Virus record (IMG/VR): IMGVR_UViG_3300047560_002412 | Coordinates: 1 to 64,000 of that record | Direction: 5' to 3' (one strand) | Source: a virus | Length of the DNA: 64,000 nt | The notes under the pieces: generated by a model | Database searches by the model: none | What the model saw: the letters and a program-made list of their open reading frames with translations, nothing else | What the model was told of the DNA's origin: nothing | Part shown: positions 7,387-54,183 of the stretch, piece by piece | Layout: every line of letters begins with the position of its first letter | Position numbering within the stretch: position 1 is the first letter of the stretch | Translations under genes and position numbers: made by a program

Positions 7387-7461
7387 GCGCTAGAAGCTAA
7401 CTGGTCAAGCAAGAGCCTCTAAAACTCCGAGTAGTGGGTTCAATTCCCACCTAGCGCACCA
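7387..7461 (+). tRNA. tRNA with anticodon CUA (putative amber suppressor)
   Basis: Cloverleaf read by hand. The acceptor stem GCGCTAG pairs perfectly with CTAGCGC, with discriminator A and encoded CCA. The T arm is GTGGG-loop-CCCAC with TTCAATT, the D stem is GCT/AGC and the variable loop has 5 nt. With the standard U33, the loop CTCTAAA gives anticodon CUA (7419-7421), which reads UAG. The anticodon stem has A-C mismatches at 27-43 and 31-39. It stands alone, far from the main tRNA array. Amino-acid identity cannot be assigned. The alternative UAA (Leu) anticodon would need C33 and a worse stem. Confidence 0.7.
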
Positions 7462-10065: not shown

Positions 10066-10650
10066 ATGACAAAATAGATTGAATATCAATGTAAGGACCT
10101 AGTGTTCCATTTTAACAAAAAACACTTAGAAGACGCCACAATTCCTATGTGGGTCGTTAAAAGCCATGGTGTAACATTTTATGTAAATCACGTTACCGCA
10201 GAAATACCATGGACAACCAAAGAAACTCCCGACAACGAACATACCAAAGGCAGTCTTAAATTTAAGAATTGCAAGCTCTCTATTGACAGAGAGAATTGCG
10301 CTACATTAACTAAAATTGGATTTTTGGATAGAAACTTACCACATCCAAAATTAGTGGTAGCTCGTATCATTGCTAGTAACGGAGGAGAATTCCATCAGGC
10401 ATTACTGCGGGGAGAGTTTCAACACAGCAAGATTAAACATATTGTAGGTTCTTGTAGCAGCGGATTTATTGTCTGTGATCTTTTGGACAAAAACGAGTAT
10501 CTTGTAGCCGCTTTAAAACATGGCAATAAGTTTCGAGTTATGAAACCAAATGAATCTTACTATCAGGCATATGAAAACACAGCAGAATGGATTGAAGAAG
10601 CCGATTATGAAGAATATGACGATGAAGAACTTGACACAAATGATGTTTGA
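10066..10650 (+). CDS. Hypothetical protein with in-frame amber codon at position 4
   Basis: An ATG at 10066 with a purine-rich ribosome site (AAGGAAAAG) opens M-T-K, then TAG at 10075-10077, then continues in the same frame (IEYQCKDLVFHFNKK) to the TGA at 10650: 194 residues if the amber is read. The sequence between the TAG and the GTG at 10102 reads like normal coding sequence. Alternatively, translation starts at GTG 10102 with AAGGA just before it, giving 182 residues. The phage carries a CUA-anticodon tRNA at 7387. The acidic C-terminus (EEADYEEYDDEE) is notable. Function unknown. Confidence 0.6.
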
Positions 10651-10661
10651 GTGTTAAATAT

Positions 10662-10976
10662 AAGTTATTGCTGTATGAAGCAGATAGAAATGTGTTCTGG
10701 ACGGCGGTTCGATTCCGCCCAGGTCCACCAAAAGAATTCTTCATCCTGTATAGAGACAGACAAGTGCTATAGACTATACTAAAGAGTTCTTTTGAGGGGC
10801 CTGACAAGGTTTCGACAGGGCAAGGAGTAAGGAAGTGGACAGCACGGGAATGTGAAACCCGTTAGGATTGGGGTTACCCGGTCGTAGAAGCAAAACAAAG
10901 TAAACGCAAACGATACACGTTTCGCATTAGCCGCTTAAGGCTTTGGGTAGCTATACCTCGAAACAGAAAATAGCTC
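10662..10976 (+). ncRNA. ssrA: Two-piece (circularly permuted) tmRNA
   Basis: The acceptor piece comes first: a T arm (GGCGG-TTCGATT-CCGCC) and the end CAGGTCC-A-CCA at 10730. The coding piece starts at 10797 with GGGCCTG, which pairs perfectly with CAGGTCC including the G3-U70 alanine signal, followed by a tmRNA-like ACAAGGTTTCGACAGGG. The tag frame from GCA 10906 encodes ANDTRFALAA then TAA (10936-10938). The intervening 10731-10796 is closed by AAAAGAATTCTT with AAGAGTTCTTTT, as expected for an excised loop. The 5' limit of the acceptor piece is uncertain. Rescues stalled ribosomes and tags proteins for degradation. Confidence 0.88.
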
Positions 10977-11004
10977 AAAATGGCGTCTTTTGACGCCATT
11001 TTTT
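10977..11004 (+). terminator. Rho-independent terminator after tmRNA
   Basis: AATGGCGTC / GACGCCATT stem with a TTTT-type loop followed by a T run. Confidence 0.85.
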
Positions 11005-11133
11005 ATTGCATCTTTATATTCTATGCTATATACTTGCTAATGATCAGCGTTAATGCTGATTATTTTTTGTCGTGTTGTTATTGGTTTAATACAGAAAGTT
11101 TTTAACACACGATCACACATAAGAGGAAATTAT

Positions 11134-21529: not shown

Positions 21530-21612
21530 GTGATAAATATTTTTGTTAGCGTACCAGGTGGGCGTTAACAAGGGCAAAGAGCCCAACTAGATCTTACTTT
21601 AAAAGGAGATGA
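21530..21612 (+). promoter_or_regulatory. Structured dnaK leader shared with hsp20
   Basis: ATAAATA at 21533, then GTTAGCG/CGTTAAC and GGGC/GCCC stems, then TCTTACTTTAAAAGGAG over the ribosome site. The same order and several identical blocks occur before hsp20 (23530-23610). CTT can pair with AAG of the ribosome site, so a thermosensor-like occlusion is conceivable. Confidence 0.55.
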
Positions 21613-21614
21613 AT

Positions 21615-23513
21615 ATGTCTAAGATCATCGGTATCGACTTAGGTACCACAAATAGTTGCGTAGCCGTAATCGAAAACGGTAATTCAAAAGTTATTGAAAA
21701 CTCTGAAGGCGCAAGAACAACACCCTCAATCGTTGCTTACACACAGGATGAAATCCTAGTAGGTGCTACAGCAAAACGACAAGCAGTAACAAATCCCAAG
21801 AACACAATTTATGCAGCCAAGCGTTTAATTGGACGTAAGTTCAAAGAACAGGCTGTGCAAAAAGACATTGACCTAATGCCATATGAAATTATGGAAAGTA
21901 AAAATGGTGATGCATGGGTACGTGCTCAAGACAAAGAATTGGCACCCCCACAAATTTCAGCAGAAGTTCTTCGCAAGATGAAGAAAACCGCCGAAGACTA
22001 CCTCGGCGAAGAAGTTACCAAAGCTGTTATTACCGTTCCTGCTTATTTTAACGATCAACAAAGACAAGCGACCAAGGATGCTGGACAAATTGCTGGCCTA
22101 GAAGTTCTACGTATTATCAACGAACCAACAGCAGCCGCACTGGCCTACGGTGTAGATAAACAAGACAAAGCTGATCGAAAGATTGCAGTTTATGACTTAG
22201 GTGGCGGAACATTTGACGTTTCCATTATTGAAATTGCAAACGTAGATGGCGATAAACAAATTGAAGTATTGTCAACCAATGGTGACACATTCCTAGGTGG
22301 TGAAGATTTTGACCAACGCATTATGGATTACCTATGCGACGAGTTTAAGAAAGAACAAGGAATTGATCTTAAGAAAGATATGCTTGCCCTACAGCGTCTC
22401 AAAGAAAGTGCTGAAAAAGCTAAGATTGAACTTTCAAGCTCTGCATCAACAGATGTTAACTTGCCATATATTACAGCAGACGCAGGTGGCCCAAAACATA
22501 TGAACATTAAAATCACTCGTGCTAAACTAGAAGCATTAGTAGACGACCTTGTTCAGCGTTCATTAGAGCCGTGCCGAGTTGCTATGAAGGACGCAGGTGT
22601 AACTGCTTCAGAAATTGACGAAGTTATCTTAGTTGGTGGTCAAACACGTATGCCTAAGGTACAAGAAGAAGTTGAAAAACTATTTGGTAAATCACCACGT
22701 AAAGATGTTAATCCTGATGAAGCAGTAGCAGTTGGCGCAGCTATTCAAGGTGCTGTGTTAGGTGGTGATCGTAAAGACGTTCTACTACTTGACGTTACTC
22801 CATTGTCACTAGGTATTGAAACACTAGGCGGTGTAATGGCCAAGATTATTCAAAAGAACACAACCATTCCAACCAAAGGACAGCAAACATTCTCTACCGC
22901 AGAAGATAATCAACCTGCTGTGGACATTAAAGTGTTCCAAGGTGAGCGTGAGCTTGTTCAATACAACAAACTATTAGGCGAGTTTAAACTTGATGGAATT
23001 GCTCCTGCACCGAGAGGCATGCCACAAGTTGAAGTTACCTTTGATATTGATGCTAACGGTATTATGCATATTAGTGCCAAAGACAAAAATACAGGTAAAG
23101 AAAACAAGATCACTATTAAATCCGATAGCGGTCTAAGCAAAGAACAAATCGATGAAATGATTCGAGATGCTGAAGCTAATGCAGAGTCAGATAAAAAAGT
23201 TCGAGAATTAATCGATGTTAAAAATTCTGCAGAATCTCAATTACATCAAGTTAAAAAAGATCTTGAAGAATTCCGTTCTGATCTAACAGAAACAGAAATT
23301 TCTGATATTGAGAAAGTAATAGCAGATGTTGAATCTGCCGCTAAAGGTGATAGTATTGATGCTATCAAAACAGAATTAGAAAAAGTTGTACCTGCAATGT
23401 CAGTATTGCTACAAAAACGTCAGTTAAAAGAGCAAGGACAAACTCCAGATGCCCAACCAACTCAAGACGATAATGTAGTAGATGCTACATTTACTGAAAC
23501 TAAAAAAGATTGA
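21615..23513 (+). CDS. dnaK: Chaperone DnaK (Hsp70)
   Basis: 632 residues, full length. ATPase domain with [38 protein letters not shown] and VGGQTRMP; substrate domain with [12 protein letters not shown] and the helical lid; the tail is charged without the EEVKD-type end of E. coli. Start 21615 is chosen because AAAGGAG is seven bases before it; 21609 would be too close. No dnaJ or grpE is seen, so it would use host cochaperones. May also serve the phage IscU via its LPPVK motif. Confidence 0.96.
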
Positions 23514-47176: not shown

Positions 47177-47253
47177 GGGAGTATAGCTCAACTGGCTAGA
47201 GCAACCGGCTTTTAACCGGTAGGTTCAGGGTTCAAGTCCCTGTGCTCCTACCA
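47177..47253 (+). tRNA. tRNA-Lys (TTT)
   Basis: ACCGG/CCGGT around CTTTTAA, anticodon TTT. Regular D and T arms; CCA encoded. Confidence 0.9.
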
Positions 47254-47733: not shown

Positions 47734-47736
47734 AGT

Positions 47737-47936
47737 TTTGTTGTAGTGTTAGTAAGTGAAAGTCACTTTTGTTAGTAGCTGGCCAGCCAAAGCAAAAGTA
47801 AACAGAGGGGGGCGCAATACCCTAGCAAAAAATACGTAACTCTGGGCAAGTAACTGCAATAGCGTACCGAGTCCTTCCAGCTGGCTTGATTAGAGGTGAA
47901 TGGTTCCTATAACGATGGTGGAACTACTACAACAAA
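47737..47936 (+). ncRNA. Structured RNA element D
   Basis: TTTGTTGTAGT (47737-47747) pairs perfectly with ACTACAACAAA (47926-47936), 11 bp. Interior has AAGTGAAAGTCACTT and a long-range AGCTGG/CCAGCT. About 200 nt between tRNA-Thr and tRNA-Gln, no coding sign. Confidence 0.6.
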
Positions 47937-47947
47937 TTTATTTCTGT

Positions 47948-49003: not shown

Positions 49004-49033
49004 TTGACAAAGCATACAGATAGAATATATAAT
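49004..49033 (+). promoter_or_regulatory. Sigma70-type promoter for tRNA-Leu(TAG) and following RNAs
   Basis: TTGACA (49004-49009), 18-bp spacer, TATAAT (49028-49033). It would transcribe tRNA-Leu and RNA elements F, G and H. Confidence 0.8.
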
Positions 49034-49089: not shown

Positions 49090-49173
49090 GCCCTGGTGGT
49101 GGAATGGTAGACACGCTGGTCTTAGAAGCCAGTGTCGCGAGGCGTGAGAGTTCGAGTCTCTCCTGGGGCACCA
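49090..49173 (+). tRNA. tRNA-Leu (TAG)
   Basis: CTGGT/GCCAG around CTTAGAA, anticodon TAG (reads CUA). Long variable arm; acceptor closed by CTGGGGC; CCA encoded. Confidence 0.9.
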
Positions 49174-49334
49174 TTAAAAAATAGCATTAGCGGGTATCGC
49201 TTGTGGACGCACAGGCTCATGAGGAATAGGGCCATCTTACTCCTCTGAAAAAACCGTGAACAATGGCTTATGAGGAGAATCGAACTCCACTCAGAAATAC
49301 GTTTCATCCCATAGGGTGTAATGTTATTTTTTAA
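49174..49334 (+). ncRNA. Structured RNA element F with 16-bp closing stem
   Basis: Bases 49174-49189 pair with 49319-49334 (one G-U, otherwise perfect), and the CA of the preceding tRNA CCA could extend it. Inside: GCG/CGC, GAGGA/TCCTC and GGAG/CTCC hairpins. No ORF of note. Confidence 0.65.
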
Positions 49335-49344
49335 TGGTAAAAAT

Positions 49345-50230
49345 TTAAGGGCAGTTTATTGTCCTGTAGGCGGCTTGCCGTCTACAAAGAATAAGTGAGG
49401 TGACTCACCCAAAGCTAGAATGCCTACATACTAGCGCCAGCAATGGTTCATGTAAACAAGCCTGCTCACTACCGCGAGGTAGCGTTCACTGATAAGACCG
49501 GTGGATGTAACAGCAAAGCTGATGTAGTGGAAAGAACGTTTGCTTACAAGCCCGTAAGGGGAACTTGAGTGAATGGAAAGTAACAGGTGGTGCTGACTTC
49601 ACTACAAAACCAATCAGTCAACTGGTATGAGAAAGGGTAGTGTATTGGTCCGAAGGGTCGCTCCTAAGGGCTCGTATGCAATGTTAATGGAAGGTGGAAC
49701 ACGTTGCGAAACGTTGTTACATCGGTCGTGAAACATCACTGAGTAGCTCGCGAGGCAAAAGGTATGTGGTGAGTTGTATTTTGTATTCCAAAAGAGTATG
49801 AAGCAACTGAGGCAGCTCATCGCGGTAGGTTCAATGTAGATCAATGGTAGATCGTCTGTCTTTTAAACAGAATGCTGTGGGTTCAAATCCCATCATTAAC
49901 AAAAATGCAAAGACTGCCTCGGTTATGTGTGAAAAGTATCTAACGCTCGGGGCGCAAGCCAACTGAGTCTGATAAAGCTCGCAAGGTGATATCAGTTTAT
50001 ACTGGAAGTTTCGTAGTTCGCAAGACTTAATGGCTCGCAAGGTCAACGGAATAGATGGTGTAGAGTAGCATATAACGACAAGCCTAATGCCTGGCTTTAA
50101 AAACGGCGATACTGCAAGTAGACTAGGTTACATGGTAACATGAACTTAGTGGATGTCTAGAGAACGTATACTCGCAAGGTGTACGGTAATGCTAGAGGTA
50201 CTTGTGGGAGAGATGTAATCTCAGTCCTCC
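49345..50230 (+). ncRNA. Large ornate structured RNA (GOLLD/ROOL-like candidate)
   Basis: About 890 nt without a credible ORF and with higher GC than the genes. Many perfect hairpins with GNRA tetraloops: GTGAG-GTGA-CTCAC, CTACC-GCGA-GGTAG, CCC-GTAA-GGG, ACGTT-GCGA-AACGT, and repeated CTCGCAAGG-type loops. A tRNA-Lys-like cloverleaf lies inside (49830-49900). Position in a phage tRNA array, size and embedded tRNA fit what I recall of GOLLD RNAs. Ends are approximate. A group II intron is less likely: no domain V or reverse transcriptase is seen. Confidence 0.6.
49830..49900 (+). tRNA. tRNA-Lys(TTT)-like domain inside the large RNA
   Basis: D stem GATC/GATC, anticodon stem TCTGT/ACAGA around CTTTTAA (TTT), T arm GTGGG/CCCAT with TTCAAAT. 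The acceptor has only five of seven pairs and no CCA follows, so it is probably a structural mimic rather than a free tRNA. Confidence 0.6.
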
Positions 50231-50324: not shown

Positions 50325-50400
50325 GCATCCTTAGCTCAGCGGTAGCAGCGGCGTCTTTACACGGCGTAGGTCGTAGGTTCAATCCCTACAGGATGCACCA
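50325..50400 (+). tRNA. tRNA-Val (TAC)
   Basis: GCGTC/GGCGT around TTTACAC, anticodon TAC. Acceptor GCATCCT/AGGATGC. A UAA-reading alternative was rejected because its stem does not pair. Confidence 0.85.
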
Positions 50401-51236: not shown

Positions 51237-51244
51237 GTTTTACC

Positions 51245-51274
51245 AAAAAGACTTGACCTTAGGTCTTTTTTGTT
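51245..51274 (+). terminator. Terminator overlapping a promoter
   Basis: AAAAAGAC / GTCTTTTTT stem closes the tRNA run. The same bases contain the -35 box of the next promoter. Confidence 0.75.
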
Positions 51275-51281
51275 TTATACT
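51253..51281 (+). promoter_or_regulatory. Sigma70-type promoter
   Basis: TTGACC (51253-51258), 17-bp spacer, TATACT (51276-51281), built into the terminator hairpin. Confidence 0.72.
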
Positions 51282-51286
51282 AGTTT

Positions 51287-51578
51287 TGTTGTGTAGCAAT
51301 ACACAACCGGCGAGGTAGAAGGTAGATGAGGATAGACATTTCATTGGCTTACAACGCTAATGAATCTTATCAATGGCAAAACGTCTTGAAAACGTTTCGT
51401 GCTTGAGTGAACCGATATCCACATACCTGTCATTTGCTGATCGGAAATATTCAGGCCTCTGTAGCCTGTTTATTGAATGTTGTCAAGGAGATGCTTTATA
51501 GCTATCCGTTTGCATATTGTCCGGTCTATTACTTGACCTTTTACTGACCCGTTATTTTAAATTAAAAGAGAGACACAA
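51287..51578 (+). ncRNA. Structured 290-nt leader or RNA
   Basis: Starts at the promoter and contains TTGTGTA-GCAA-TACACAA and AAACGT/ACGTTT hairpins and several smaller ones, then a coding gene after AAAAGAGAGACACAA. No ORF inside. Could be a cis-regulator or an independent RNA. Confidence 0.5.
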
Positions 51579-52238: not shown

Positions 52239-52315
52239 CGGTGTGTAGCTCAGCCTGGTAGAGCTCCTGGTTTGGGACCAGGTGGTCGCATGTTCGAATC
52301 GTGTCACACCGACCA
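52239..52315 (+). tRNA. tRNA-Pro (TGG), copy 2
   Basis: CCTGG/CCAGG around TTTGGGA, anticodon TGG. Acceptor CGGTGTG/CACACCG. Confidence 0.9.
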
Positions 52316-52347
52316 AGTACGATAAGATACGTTCAATAAATAGAAAT

Positions 52348-53505
52348 ATGAATATTGGCGGACTTGATCAATTTAAAGATAATTCTATTAACGGTATTAT
52401 CGACGAAATAAAAAAGATAAATGGTTTATTATTAGATGCAACAATAAGCCTTTGTCAACATTGTCATTACCATGTTCCAGCATATAGATACGAATTAAAC
52501 AATAAAGTCTATATTTGCAAACATTGTATAACACATGGTTTTAGTCATCATCTAATTGAAAATGATGCTGAATTTTATCACGGGTTGATAAAGAACATGG
52601 ATACCATGTGGAATTTTGATAACTATATTCTTACTGAAGTTACAGATAGATGTAATTTAGAATGTCCGCATTGTTATCATTTACCTGATAATAAAATTAA
52701 AGATGTTCCGTTAGAAGATCTTATAACTCGATTTAAAGAATATCCAGACAGCATTTATCATATAATCTTGGCTGGTGCCGAATCGAGTTTAAGGAAAGAC
52801 ATAAAAGATTTAGTTATCGAAGTTAGTAAATTAGGAAAACTTCCTCAAATTTTAACTAATGGTGTTAAATTTTCCGATATTGATTTTGTAAAAAATCTTG
52901 CTTCAGCAAATGTTGATATGACGGTTACCATAGGTTTAAATCATCCTAGCTATATTGGAAATTCTAAGGTACGTGAAAAACAAATTCAAGGAATCCTAAA
53001 TGTAAACGAATACATCAATGGATTATCGTATGTTGGTTACACTATGGTTGGAATGGATGAATTAGATTTTATTCTAACTGAAATTACTAGCACTAATTGG
53101 TGTCAACATTCAAGGATTAGAGCAGGTAGTGAAATAGGTAGAAATGCCACAGACGAACAAATTTTTGTCAGTGACATTTTTAAAGCAACAAAATTGTGGG
53201 CAGAAAGAAACGGAAAATCTTTTGAAGTTGTAGATGCTGATAATAACATATATCATGTTGTTGTAAAAATAGACAACAAGTATATAAGAATTATTCAATG
53301 GTGTGACGAAACAAATATTGATTTAGAAGAATTAAGAACTGGTCCTTGGTGTGATTTTGTCTACGACGGAATAACAAATTTTTTACATCAAGTTATAAGA
53401 AGAGATGTTTGGAAAAATAAAGGTTTAATTTTACCGGATACTCCTCCAATAAGATACCAGGTTGGGCATCATAAAGATATAGATCCAGTTTTTCTCAAGC
53501 ACTAA
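52348..53505 (+). CDS. Radical SAM protein with N-terminal cysteine knuckles
   Basis: 385 residues. CQHCHYH and CKHC near the start suggest zinc binding; CNLECPHCYH (C-x3-C-x2-C) near residue 110 binds the radical SAM cluster. Start 52348 follows ATAAATA (52336-52342). Could be a peptide- or nucleoside-modifying enzyme; substrate unknown. The C-terminus has WCDETN and GPWCDF. Confidence 0.8.
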   Translation: MNIGGLDQFKDNSINGIIDEIKKINGLLLDATISLCQHCHYHVPAYRYELNNKVYICKHCITHGFSHHLIENDAEFYHGLIKNMDTMWNFDNYILTEVTDRCNLECPHCYHLPDNKIKDVPLEDLITRFKEYPDSIYHIILAGAESSLRKDIKDLVIEVSKLGKLPQILTNGVKFSDIDFVKNLASANVDMTVTIGLNHPSYIGNSKVREKQIQGILNVNEYINGLSYVGYTMVGMDELDFILTEITSTNWCQHSRIRAGSEIGRNATDEQIFVSDIFKATKLWAERNGKSFEVVDADNNIYHVVVKIDNKYIRIIQWCDETNIDLEELRTGPWCDFVYDGITNFLHQVIRRDVWKNKGLILPDTPPIRYQVGHHKDIDPVFLKH

Positions 53506-53532
53506 AGAAGTTGCTGTAAATATAGTTTTAAT

Positions 53533-53606
53533 GCGGGGTTCGTATAGTGGTAATACCTCAGCCTTCCAAGCTGATGCGGAGAGTTCGATTCTCTTACCCC
53601 GCTCCA
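53533..53606 (+). tRNA. tRNA-Gly (TCC)
   Basis: TCAGC/GCTGA around CTTCCAA, anticodon TCC. Acceptor GCGGGGT/ACCCCGC. Confidence 0.9.
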
Positions 53607-53610
53607 TAAT

Positions 53611-54183
53611 ATGCAAATAGTAGACCAAAACGATCTAGTTAAAAAATTTAATTTTAGTTCTATAATAAATCAGAAGGATAATGATACCGCCATAGGCATT
53701 ATTACTGATATTATCGCTTCTGGTAATTACTTTACTAATTCACCAAAGTATCAAACTAAAGAAAACATATTTTCACGTCCAGAAGAAGTATGGTTAAAAT
53801 ACCGTATGAGCTTCTTAATGAGCGTGTTTATGTATTTAGGTCGAGAAGTTAGAGTCGGTAACATGATGGCATGGAGTTTTATGACAAATCTTGAGGGTGC
53901 CGAAGATCGCGAAAAACTTTGGCACCATCATTGGCATCCAACTAAACCCGATGCCAAAATGTTAAGCGGAATATTTTATCTACATATTCCCGATGATGTC
54001 AAGGACCGAGATACATGCGGTACTGAAATGGCTCCGAGTGGAATTCATAGTGATGAAAAATATTTTATCACTCCAACAGAGTTTAGTTGGATAGTATATC
54101 CTAGTCAAGTATATCATAGGCCAGGAATCGTACAAAGTAATCAATATAGATATATTCTAGCAGTAGACGTAGAATATTATTAA
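53611..54183 (+). CDS. 2OG-Fe(II) oxygenase-like protein
   Basis: 190 residues. HHHWHPTK, LSGIFYLHIP, GTEMAPSGIH, VYPSQVYHRPG and RYILAVDVEY follow the order of the aquatic-phage 2OG family (metal His, distal His, Arg). Begins four bases after tRNA-Gly with no ribosome site visible, so the start is uncertain. Confidence 0.7.
   Translation: MQIVDQNDLVKKFNFSSIINQKDNDTAIGIITDIIASGNYFTNSPKYQTKENIFSRPEEVWLKYRMSFLMSVFMYLGREVRVGNMMAWSFMTNLEGAEDREKLWHHHWHPTKPDAKMLSGIFYLHIPDDVKDRDTCGTEMAPSGIHSDEKYFITPTEFSWIVYPSQVYHRPGIVQSNQYRYILAVDVEYY

Follow-up and report, generated by a model that had tools for sequence, protein, structure and literature searches.

A phage GOLLD RNA whose linker probably carries a tRNA look-alike with a four-pair acceptor stem and an exchangeable anticodon

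The GOLLD RNA env-38 was solved by cryo-EM as a closed D7 14-mer cage, with a disordered linker pointing inwards and the 5' domain capping the half-shell (Kretsch et al. 2025, PMC12286853). According to the same authors, tRNAs sometimes occur in the GOLLD linker, and GOLLD pull-downs were said to bring down ribosomes (PMC12286853). For a mycobacterial GOLLD, an internal pseudo-tRNA was predicted and its expression was not detectable (PMC6582537). Given these two reports, a tRNA in the GOLLD linker is an arrangement already known; as to the contents of the cage, it has been suggested in print that phage tRNAs coming from the linker are held there. Phage tRNAs have an established or proposed role against anticodon nucleases (PMC10264068, PMC11555353), and Cas13a has a preference for uridine-rich anticodons (PMC11042736).

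The DNA analysed here, called the window, is a stretch of 64,000 nucleotides from a 128,727-base viral contig (IMG/VR virus record IMGVR_UViG_3300047560_002412). The whole GOLLD gene was located at 49345-50230 on the plus strand (~886 nt, ~0.88 kb, ends approximate) on the basis of Rfam for the 3' domain, covariation for the 5' domain and the fold of the strand; it was the single GOLLD copy found in the whole viral record. It is situated inside an array of ~34 tRNAs (ARAGORN, Rfam), the setting that had been read from the letters in a preliminary description, and is flanked directly upstream by tRNA-Leu(tag) (49090-49173, +) and directly downstream by tRNA-Val(tac) (50325-50400, +), both called by ARAGORN and both with an encoded CCA. 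A promoter-like site (TTGACA-18-TATAAT, 12/12 match, 49004-49033, +), which a consensus scan returned on sequence likeness only, lies upstream of tRNA-Leu and GOLLD. Model RF02032 matched 49766-50227 (+) with 221.5 bits (E 2e-61, cut-off 150) over all 416 model positions (1-416), and the surroundings were those of GOLLD: a virus record, neighbouring tRNA genes and a variable linker between flanking 3'-domain stems. The RNA in the window belongs to GOLLD (RF02032) as a new member. Resemblance to GOLLD and, to a lesser degree, to ROOL had been proposed, with a divergent member or a new class as the choice; the GOLLD half of this and the membership stood, and the new class fell. ROOL identity was rejected after its model gave no match at the window RNA even at E ≤ 1, and no Rfam family other than GOLLD and tRNA was found at the locus at E ≤ 1.

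Convincing ORFs were absent from the region, as had been claimed, the longest frames being 71-76 aa, antisense and started by TTG; no intron or coding match was obtained, and a group II intron or a decayed gene, which had been named as outcomes that would speak against a structured RNA, was rejected. The 886-nt strand folded to -280 kcal/mol (z = -5.3), a value reached by 0 of 20 dinucleotide shuffles, and apical loops of the CGCAAG/GCAA type recurred, in line with the GNRA hairpins noted beforehand. Covariation among homologues, on which the preliminary description had let its case stand or fall, was extensive. Its coordinates proved good, with the correction that the Rfam match is carried by the 3' half alone (conserved 3' domain, 49766-50227). 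The less conserved 5' domain (49345-49765, +) is without an Rfam model; it was recognised by homology in close relatives, and an alignment of 22 of these gave 102 consensus pairs, of which 65 were compensated (both sides changed, pair kept), so that the 5' domain can be regarded as real and as starting near the position first given.

Other elements were recorded in the window. A second structured RNA of ~320 nt (51237-51560) lies in the tRNA array and has homologues in 31 loci, with 25/40 consensus pairs compensated and no Rfam match; a third structured element of the array (47734-47947) was found in 21 loci, with 27/47 pairs compensated and likewise no Rfam match. Between tRNA-Leu and GOLLD there is a 169-nt element with a long A/T-rich closing stem (49172-49340; 9 distinct sequences, 16/58 pairs compensated, no Rfam match). 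A phage tmRNA, apparently permuted, was detected at 10617-11029 (ARAGORN tmRNA*, tag ANDTRFALAA; beta_tmRNA and tmRNA_permuted matches), and an isolated tRNA with a CTA anticodon at 7387-7461 (called tRNA-Pyl) is a possible amber suppressor. Protein genes of note were a DnaK-like phage protein of 634 aa (21609-23513), ~65% identical to dnaK genes of other records, a protein with CHASE2 and adenylate/guanylate cyclase domains on this phage contig (32293-34371), and, in the tRNA array, a radical SAM protein (HMPTM-type zinc ribbon) with a 2OG-Fe(II) oxygenase-like protein (52282-54183), which possibly serve nucleotide or tRNA modification.

The variable linker of the window copy (GTAGG ... AAAAATGCAAAG; 49825-49911, +) was delimited by alignment to the Rfam model and from the literature. 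It holds a tRNA-like domain at 49829-49901 (+), identified by ARAGORN (tRNA-Lys(ttt), 49830-49901), by the Rfam tRNA model (62.4 bits) and by covariation in relatives, with UUU at the anticodon position (49862-49864) and without CCA at its end (sequence CATTAACAAAAATG). In RF02032 this position corresponds to an unpaired, A-rich part between two conserved stems, and the cloverleaf was also formed in the minimum-energy fold of the whole RNA. The tRNA-Lys-like cloverleaf without CCA that had been picked out by eye is real, and the comparative data agree with its reading as tRNA-like; what had to be amended is the acceptor stem, which is unusual, with 5/7 pairs in strict register (ARAGORN) and a C bulge or mismatch, and so falls short of a 7-bp acceptor. 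The conserved part is a 4-bp stem, the 5' strand AATG at 49833-49836 (+) pairing with CATT at 49894-49897, as supported by covariation. A GTT...AAC closing helix with a bulge, as it can be drawn in the window copy, was considered as the general end of the acceptor and dropped: it showed no compensation and was no better than with shuffled partners. For decoding the domain would be redundant, since a tRNA-Lys(ttt) of the array (47177-47253, +; ARAGORN) has the same anticodon.

Relatives were collected by pattern scans of viral contigs followed by HMM searches, which yielded, for the subclade to which the window RNA belongs, 102 distinct 3' domains on contigs of up to 518 kb. A loose linker-flank pattern gave mostly chance matches and served only in combination with subsequent HMM filtering; one scan of genome contigs gave 3 loci and 0 GOLLD. 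Apparent 3' domains of more than 1 kb in four loci were merged HMM hits, and one of these loci (L316) was left out of the tRNA comparison, the other three entering by their linker only. Linkers in the subclade were mostly 76-89 nt long, a few being 37-69 nt and without a tRNA. ARAGORN called a linker tRNA in 79 members, including one artefact (L316), with the anticodons Asn gtt (25), Lys ttt (15) and ctt (12), Arg tct (8), and further Ile, Thr, Gly, Pro, Trp, Gln and others, stop-reading cta, tta and tca among them. In two loci (L294, 988-1427, and L314) the 5' domain carries a large deletion, and the 3' domain and tRNA-like domain are intact.

For comparison with working tRNAs, the yardstick for 68 distinct embedded domains was a set of 1273 distinct tRNAs from the arrays of these phages. 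CCA was encoded in 1/68 embedded domains vs 1216/1271 array tRNAs (96%), and a full 7-bp acceptor was present in 9/68 vs 1092/1273; acceptor positions 2 and 3 were paired in 46-49% of the embedded domains and in 99-100% of the array tRNAs, whereas the body outside the acceptor was better paired in the embedded domains than in the array. In 32 distinct linkers, 95.1% of the cloverleaf cells were paired and 175 cells had both bases changed, compared with 50 in shuffles, giving a covariation score of 0.755 vs 0.237 for shuffled linkers and at most 0.155 when the structure was slid. Anticodon and T stems were 100% and the D stem 97.7% paired, with compensation, and the 4-bp acceptor stub was paired in 99.2% of cells with compensation at 4/4 pairs. 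The outer three acceptor positions of the same linkers were 69.8% paired without compensation, and this outer pairing was at the level of shuffled partners (1.02 vs 1.03 extra bp); all three outer pairs were present in 509/549 array tRNAs. Because outer pairing was at the shuffled level and the 4-bp stub was supported, the selected object is taken to be a cloverleaf with a four-pair stub. As judged by this covariation, selection maintains the shape of the D, anticodon and T arms and of the 4-bp acceptor stub, and by the same comparison the aminoacylation end (distal acceptor pairs, CCA) has been lost in the linker domain of the subclade.

Anticodon substitutions between near neighbours were counted on spanning trees, so that the counts are not fully independent, and amounted to 11/116 substitutions in embedded domains vs 15/2106 in array tRNAs (Fisher p 2e-8); the embedded figure is about the share expected by length, and in the array 110 would be expected. 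Anticodon change in excess of the rest of the domain was not significant for whole linkers (p 0.36) and borderline for tRNA bodies (p 0.03-0.09), for which reason positive selection on the anticodon in the metagenomic clade is regarded as unsupported and loss of constraint, not diversifying selection, is claimed. The linker anticodon, by these counts, lacks a decoding-type constraint. It also occurred in the array at 21/30 loci having at least 15 array tRNAs, the window among them. The anticodon loop is nevertheless neither structureless nor drifting freely everywhere, because U33, U36 and A37 were each at least 90% conserved in the aligned metagenomic clade and most linker anticodons were of the NNU type (Asn, Lys, Arg, Ile, Thr); some anticodon-dependent recognition, conceivably even decoding, may persist. 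The scaffold tree carried some anticodon signal (38 changes vs 41-48 in shuffles). A UUAA palindrome in Asn/Lys-type anticodon loops, seen by eye and considered as an inter-chain kissing loop, was discarded as it is absent from Arg(tct) loops.

Linkers and scaffolds were found in different combinations. The scaffolds of L335 and L337 are 100% identical and their linkers 57% identical (Asn vs Lys type), and the window copy and L247 have identical linkers on scaffolds that are 84% alike. Among the 68 embedded domains, 61 were nearer one another than to any array tRNA, which disfavours the idea that the linker captured array tRNAs repeatedly; their best array match carried the same anticodon in just 6/68. 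From these distances, the linker domains appear as one family moving between GOLLDs and not as products of repeated tRNA-gene capture.

A blastn search of the window copy against a phage collection gave no match, and cultured phages were reached via more distant GOLLD members. Caulobacter phages of the phiCbK group matched RF02032 with 165-171 bits, the element being annotated as tRNA-Lys or tRNA-Gly. In Karma, Swift, RBC57, phiCbK and BL57 almost the only difference within the 3' domain is a block of five neighbouring bases in the anticodon loop, which reads CTCTTAA, CGTCCTA or CATCCTA; the last two are without U33, which has been lost in phiCbK and BL57. No compensation for this loop change was seen elsewhere in GOLLD in the alignment. 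In the roseophages DSS3_MAL1 and MD18 the domain is of the Arg(tct) type and shows the 2 + 4 acceptor pattern again, and in Mesorhizobium phage Cp1R7A-A1 it is of the Leu(cag) type and its acceptor is reduced. In Caulobacter phages and roseophages, permuted-tmRNA matches were noted no more than ~1 kb away from GOLLD. The 3' domains of phiCbK, Karma and Swift, differing almost only in the anticodon loop, amount to a natural experiment in cultured phages.

Three other explanations were weighed. A structural spacer, by which the tRNA-like fold would fill or stiffen the linker or fix the spacing of chains so that any compact fold would serve, is rather unlikely. It accommodates the conserved place and length of the element (most linkers 76-89 nt) and the strong covariation of its shape, and it sits well with relatives that have 37-55 nt linkers without a tRNA and with Acinetobacter-type GOLLD, in which no tRNA was seen; it leaves unexplained why a tRNA T loop and U33, U36 and A37 should be kept, and why the anticodon loop was replaced as a block in the Caulobacter phages. 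It is improbable that the linker holds an ordinary phage tRNA, released by RNase P and RNase Z, completed by CCA addition and supplementing host-rare codons, with GOLLD partly acting as its precursor. The cloverleaf is canonical, with a TTC loop, U33 and R37, the location is a tRNA array, the common anticodons (Asn, Lys, Arg tct, Ile, Thr) read A-starting codons useful to an AT-rich phage, and nine domains retain the full acceptor stem; against this stand an acceptor with only four supported pairs and random-level distal pairing, the missing CCA among neighbours that encode it, anticodons that differ between near-identical copies and are mostly present in the array already, the existence of stop anticodons and U33-less loops, and the mycobacterial pseudo-tRNA, whose expression could not be detected (PMC6582537). 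A new ornate RNA class merely resembling GOLLD, to which the 5' half without an Rfam model and the absence of a blastn match might point, is already refuted by the full-length RF02032 match well over the cut-off and by the hundreds of homologous bases shared with other RF02032-positive phage RNAs.

As the charging end has gone and the anticodon varies, the linker domain is unlikely to be made for decoding and is probably a built-in tRNA look-alike, not a working tRNA. The window RNA is a GOLLD RNA of phage origin, ~0.88 kb long, whose gene shares its location, and perhaps its transcription, with a tRNA array; by homology, its 5' domain would form a cap and its 3' domain a ring. By analogy with the solved env-38 structure it may assemble into a closed RNA cage with its linkers turned inwards, so that the lumen could carry up to 14 tethered tRNA mimics, whose most likely partner is a factor able to recognise the body or the anticodon arm of a tRNA. 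The full reading, a GOLLD cage with shape-selected, non-decoding tRNA-like linker domains that bind a tRNA-recognising factor, is given a probability of roughly 0.7. As to the factor, the leading guess, a tentative one, is that the mimic is a decoy or bait for a host tRNA-targeting factor, e.g. an anticodon nuclease; such nucleases are a natural candidate because phage tRNAs counter them or are proposed to do so, and because Cas13a prefers uridine-rich anticodons. An alternative to the decoy is a docking site of tRNA shape, for ribosomes or for other cargo that binds tRNA, considered because GOLLD is said to pull down ribosomes (PMC12286853). The more elaborate version of the decoy, an anti-defence trap in which an exchangeable domain loads the cage with up to 14 uncharged mimics and the anticodon loop is altered to keep pace with the host defence, is unlikely. 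For this subclass, shape-kept tRNA-like domains would put tRNA mimicry in the place of tRNA storage as the thing to be explained. Provisionally, the description of the linker element as tRNA-like, with four acceptor pairs and an anticodon open to exchange, is new, no earlier report having been found in the papers searched.

Compared with known systems, the window GOLLD and the Caulobacter phages, roseophages and Cp1R7A-A1 share an RF02032 match, a tRNA-like domain in the same place and a similarly reduced acceptor, the element of these phages being annotated as tRNA-Lys, -Gly, -Arg or -Leu; they differ from the window in being distant in sequence, cultured and from alphaproteobacterial hosts. 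ROOL is likewise an ornate phage RNA near tRNA islands and forms, according to the literature, a cage with an inward linker, whereas the window RNA has no ROOL match at E ≤ 1. Anti-nuclease phage tRNAs (PMC10264068, PMC11555353) resemble the linker domain in phage tRNA shape and variable anticodon loops, but are working replacements, whereas the linker domain is apparently unchargeable and part of a larger RNA. With env-38 (PMC12286853) the window GOLLD has in common the 3' domain model, a less conserved 5' domain, the phage tRNA island and a variable linker, which in env-38 is short and disordered (nt 497-538) and in the window contains a tRNA-like domain with a 4-bp acceptor. The mycobacterial GOLLD (PMC6582537) also lies in a tRNA cluster of likely phage origin and has a predicted tRNA inside; it is a single case of a pseudo-tRNA, whereas here, on the evidence of covariation, a whole subclade keeps the shape.
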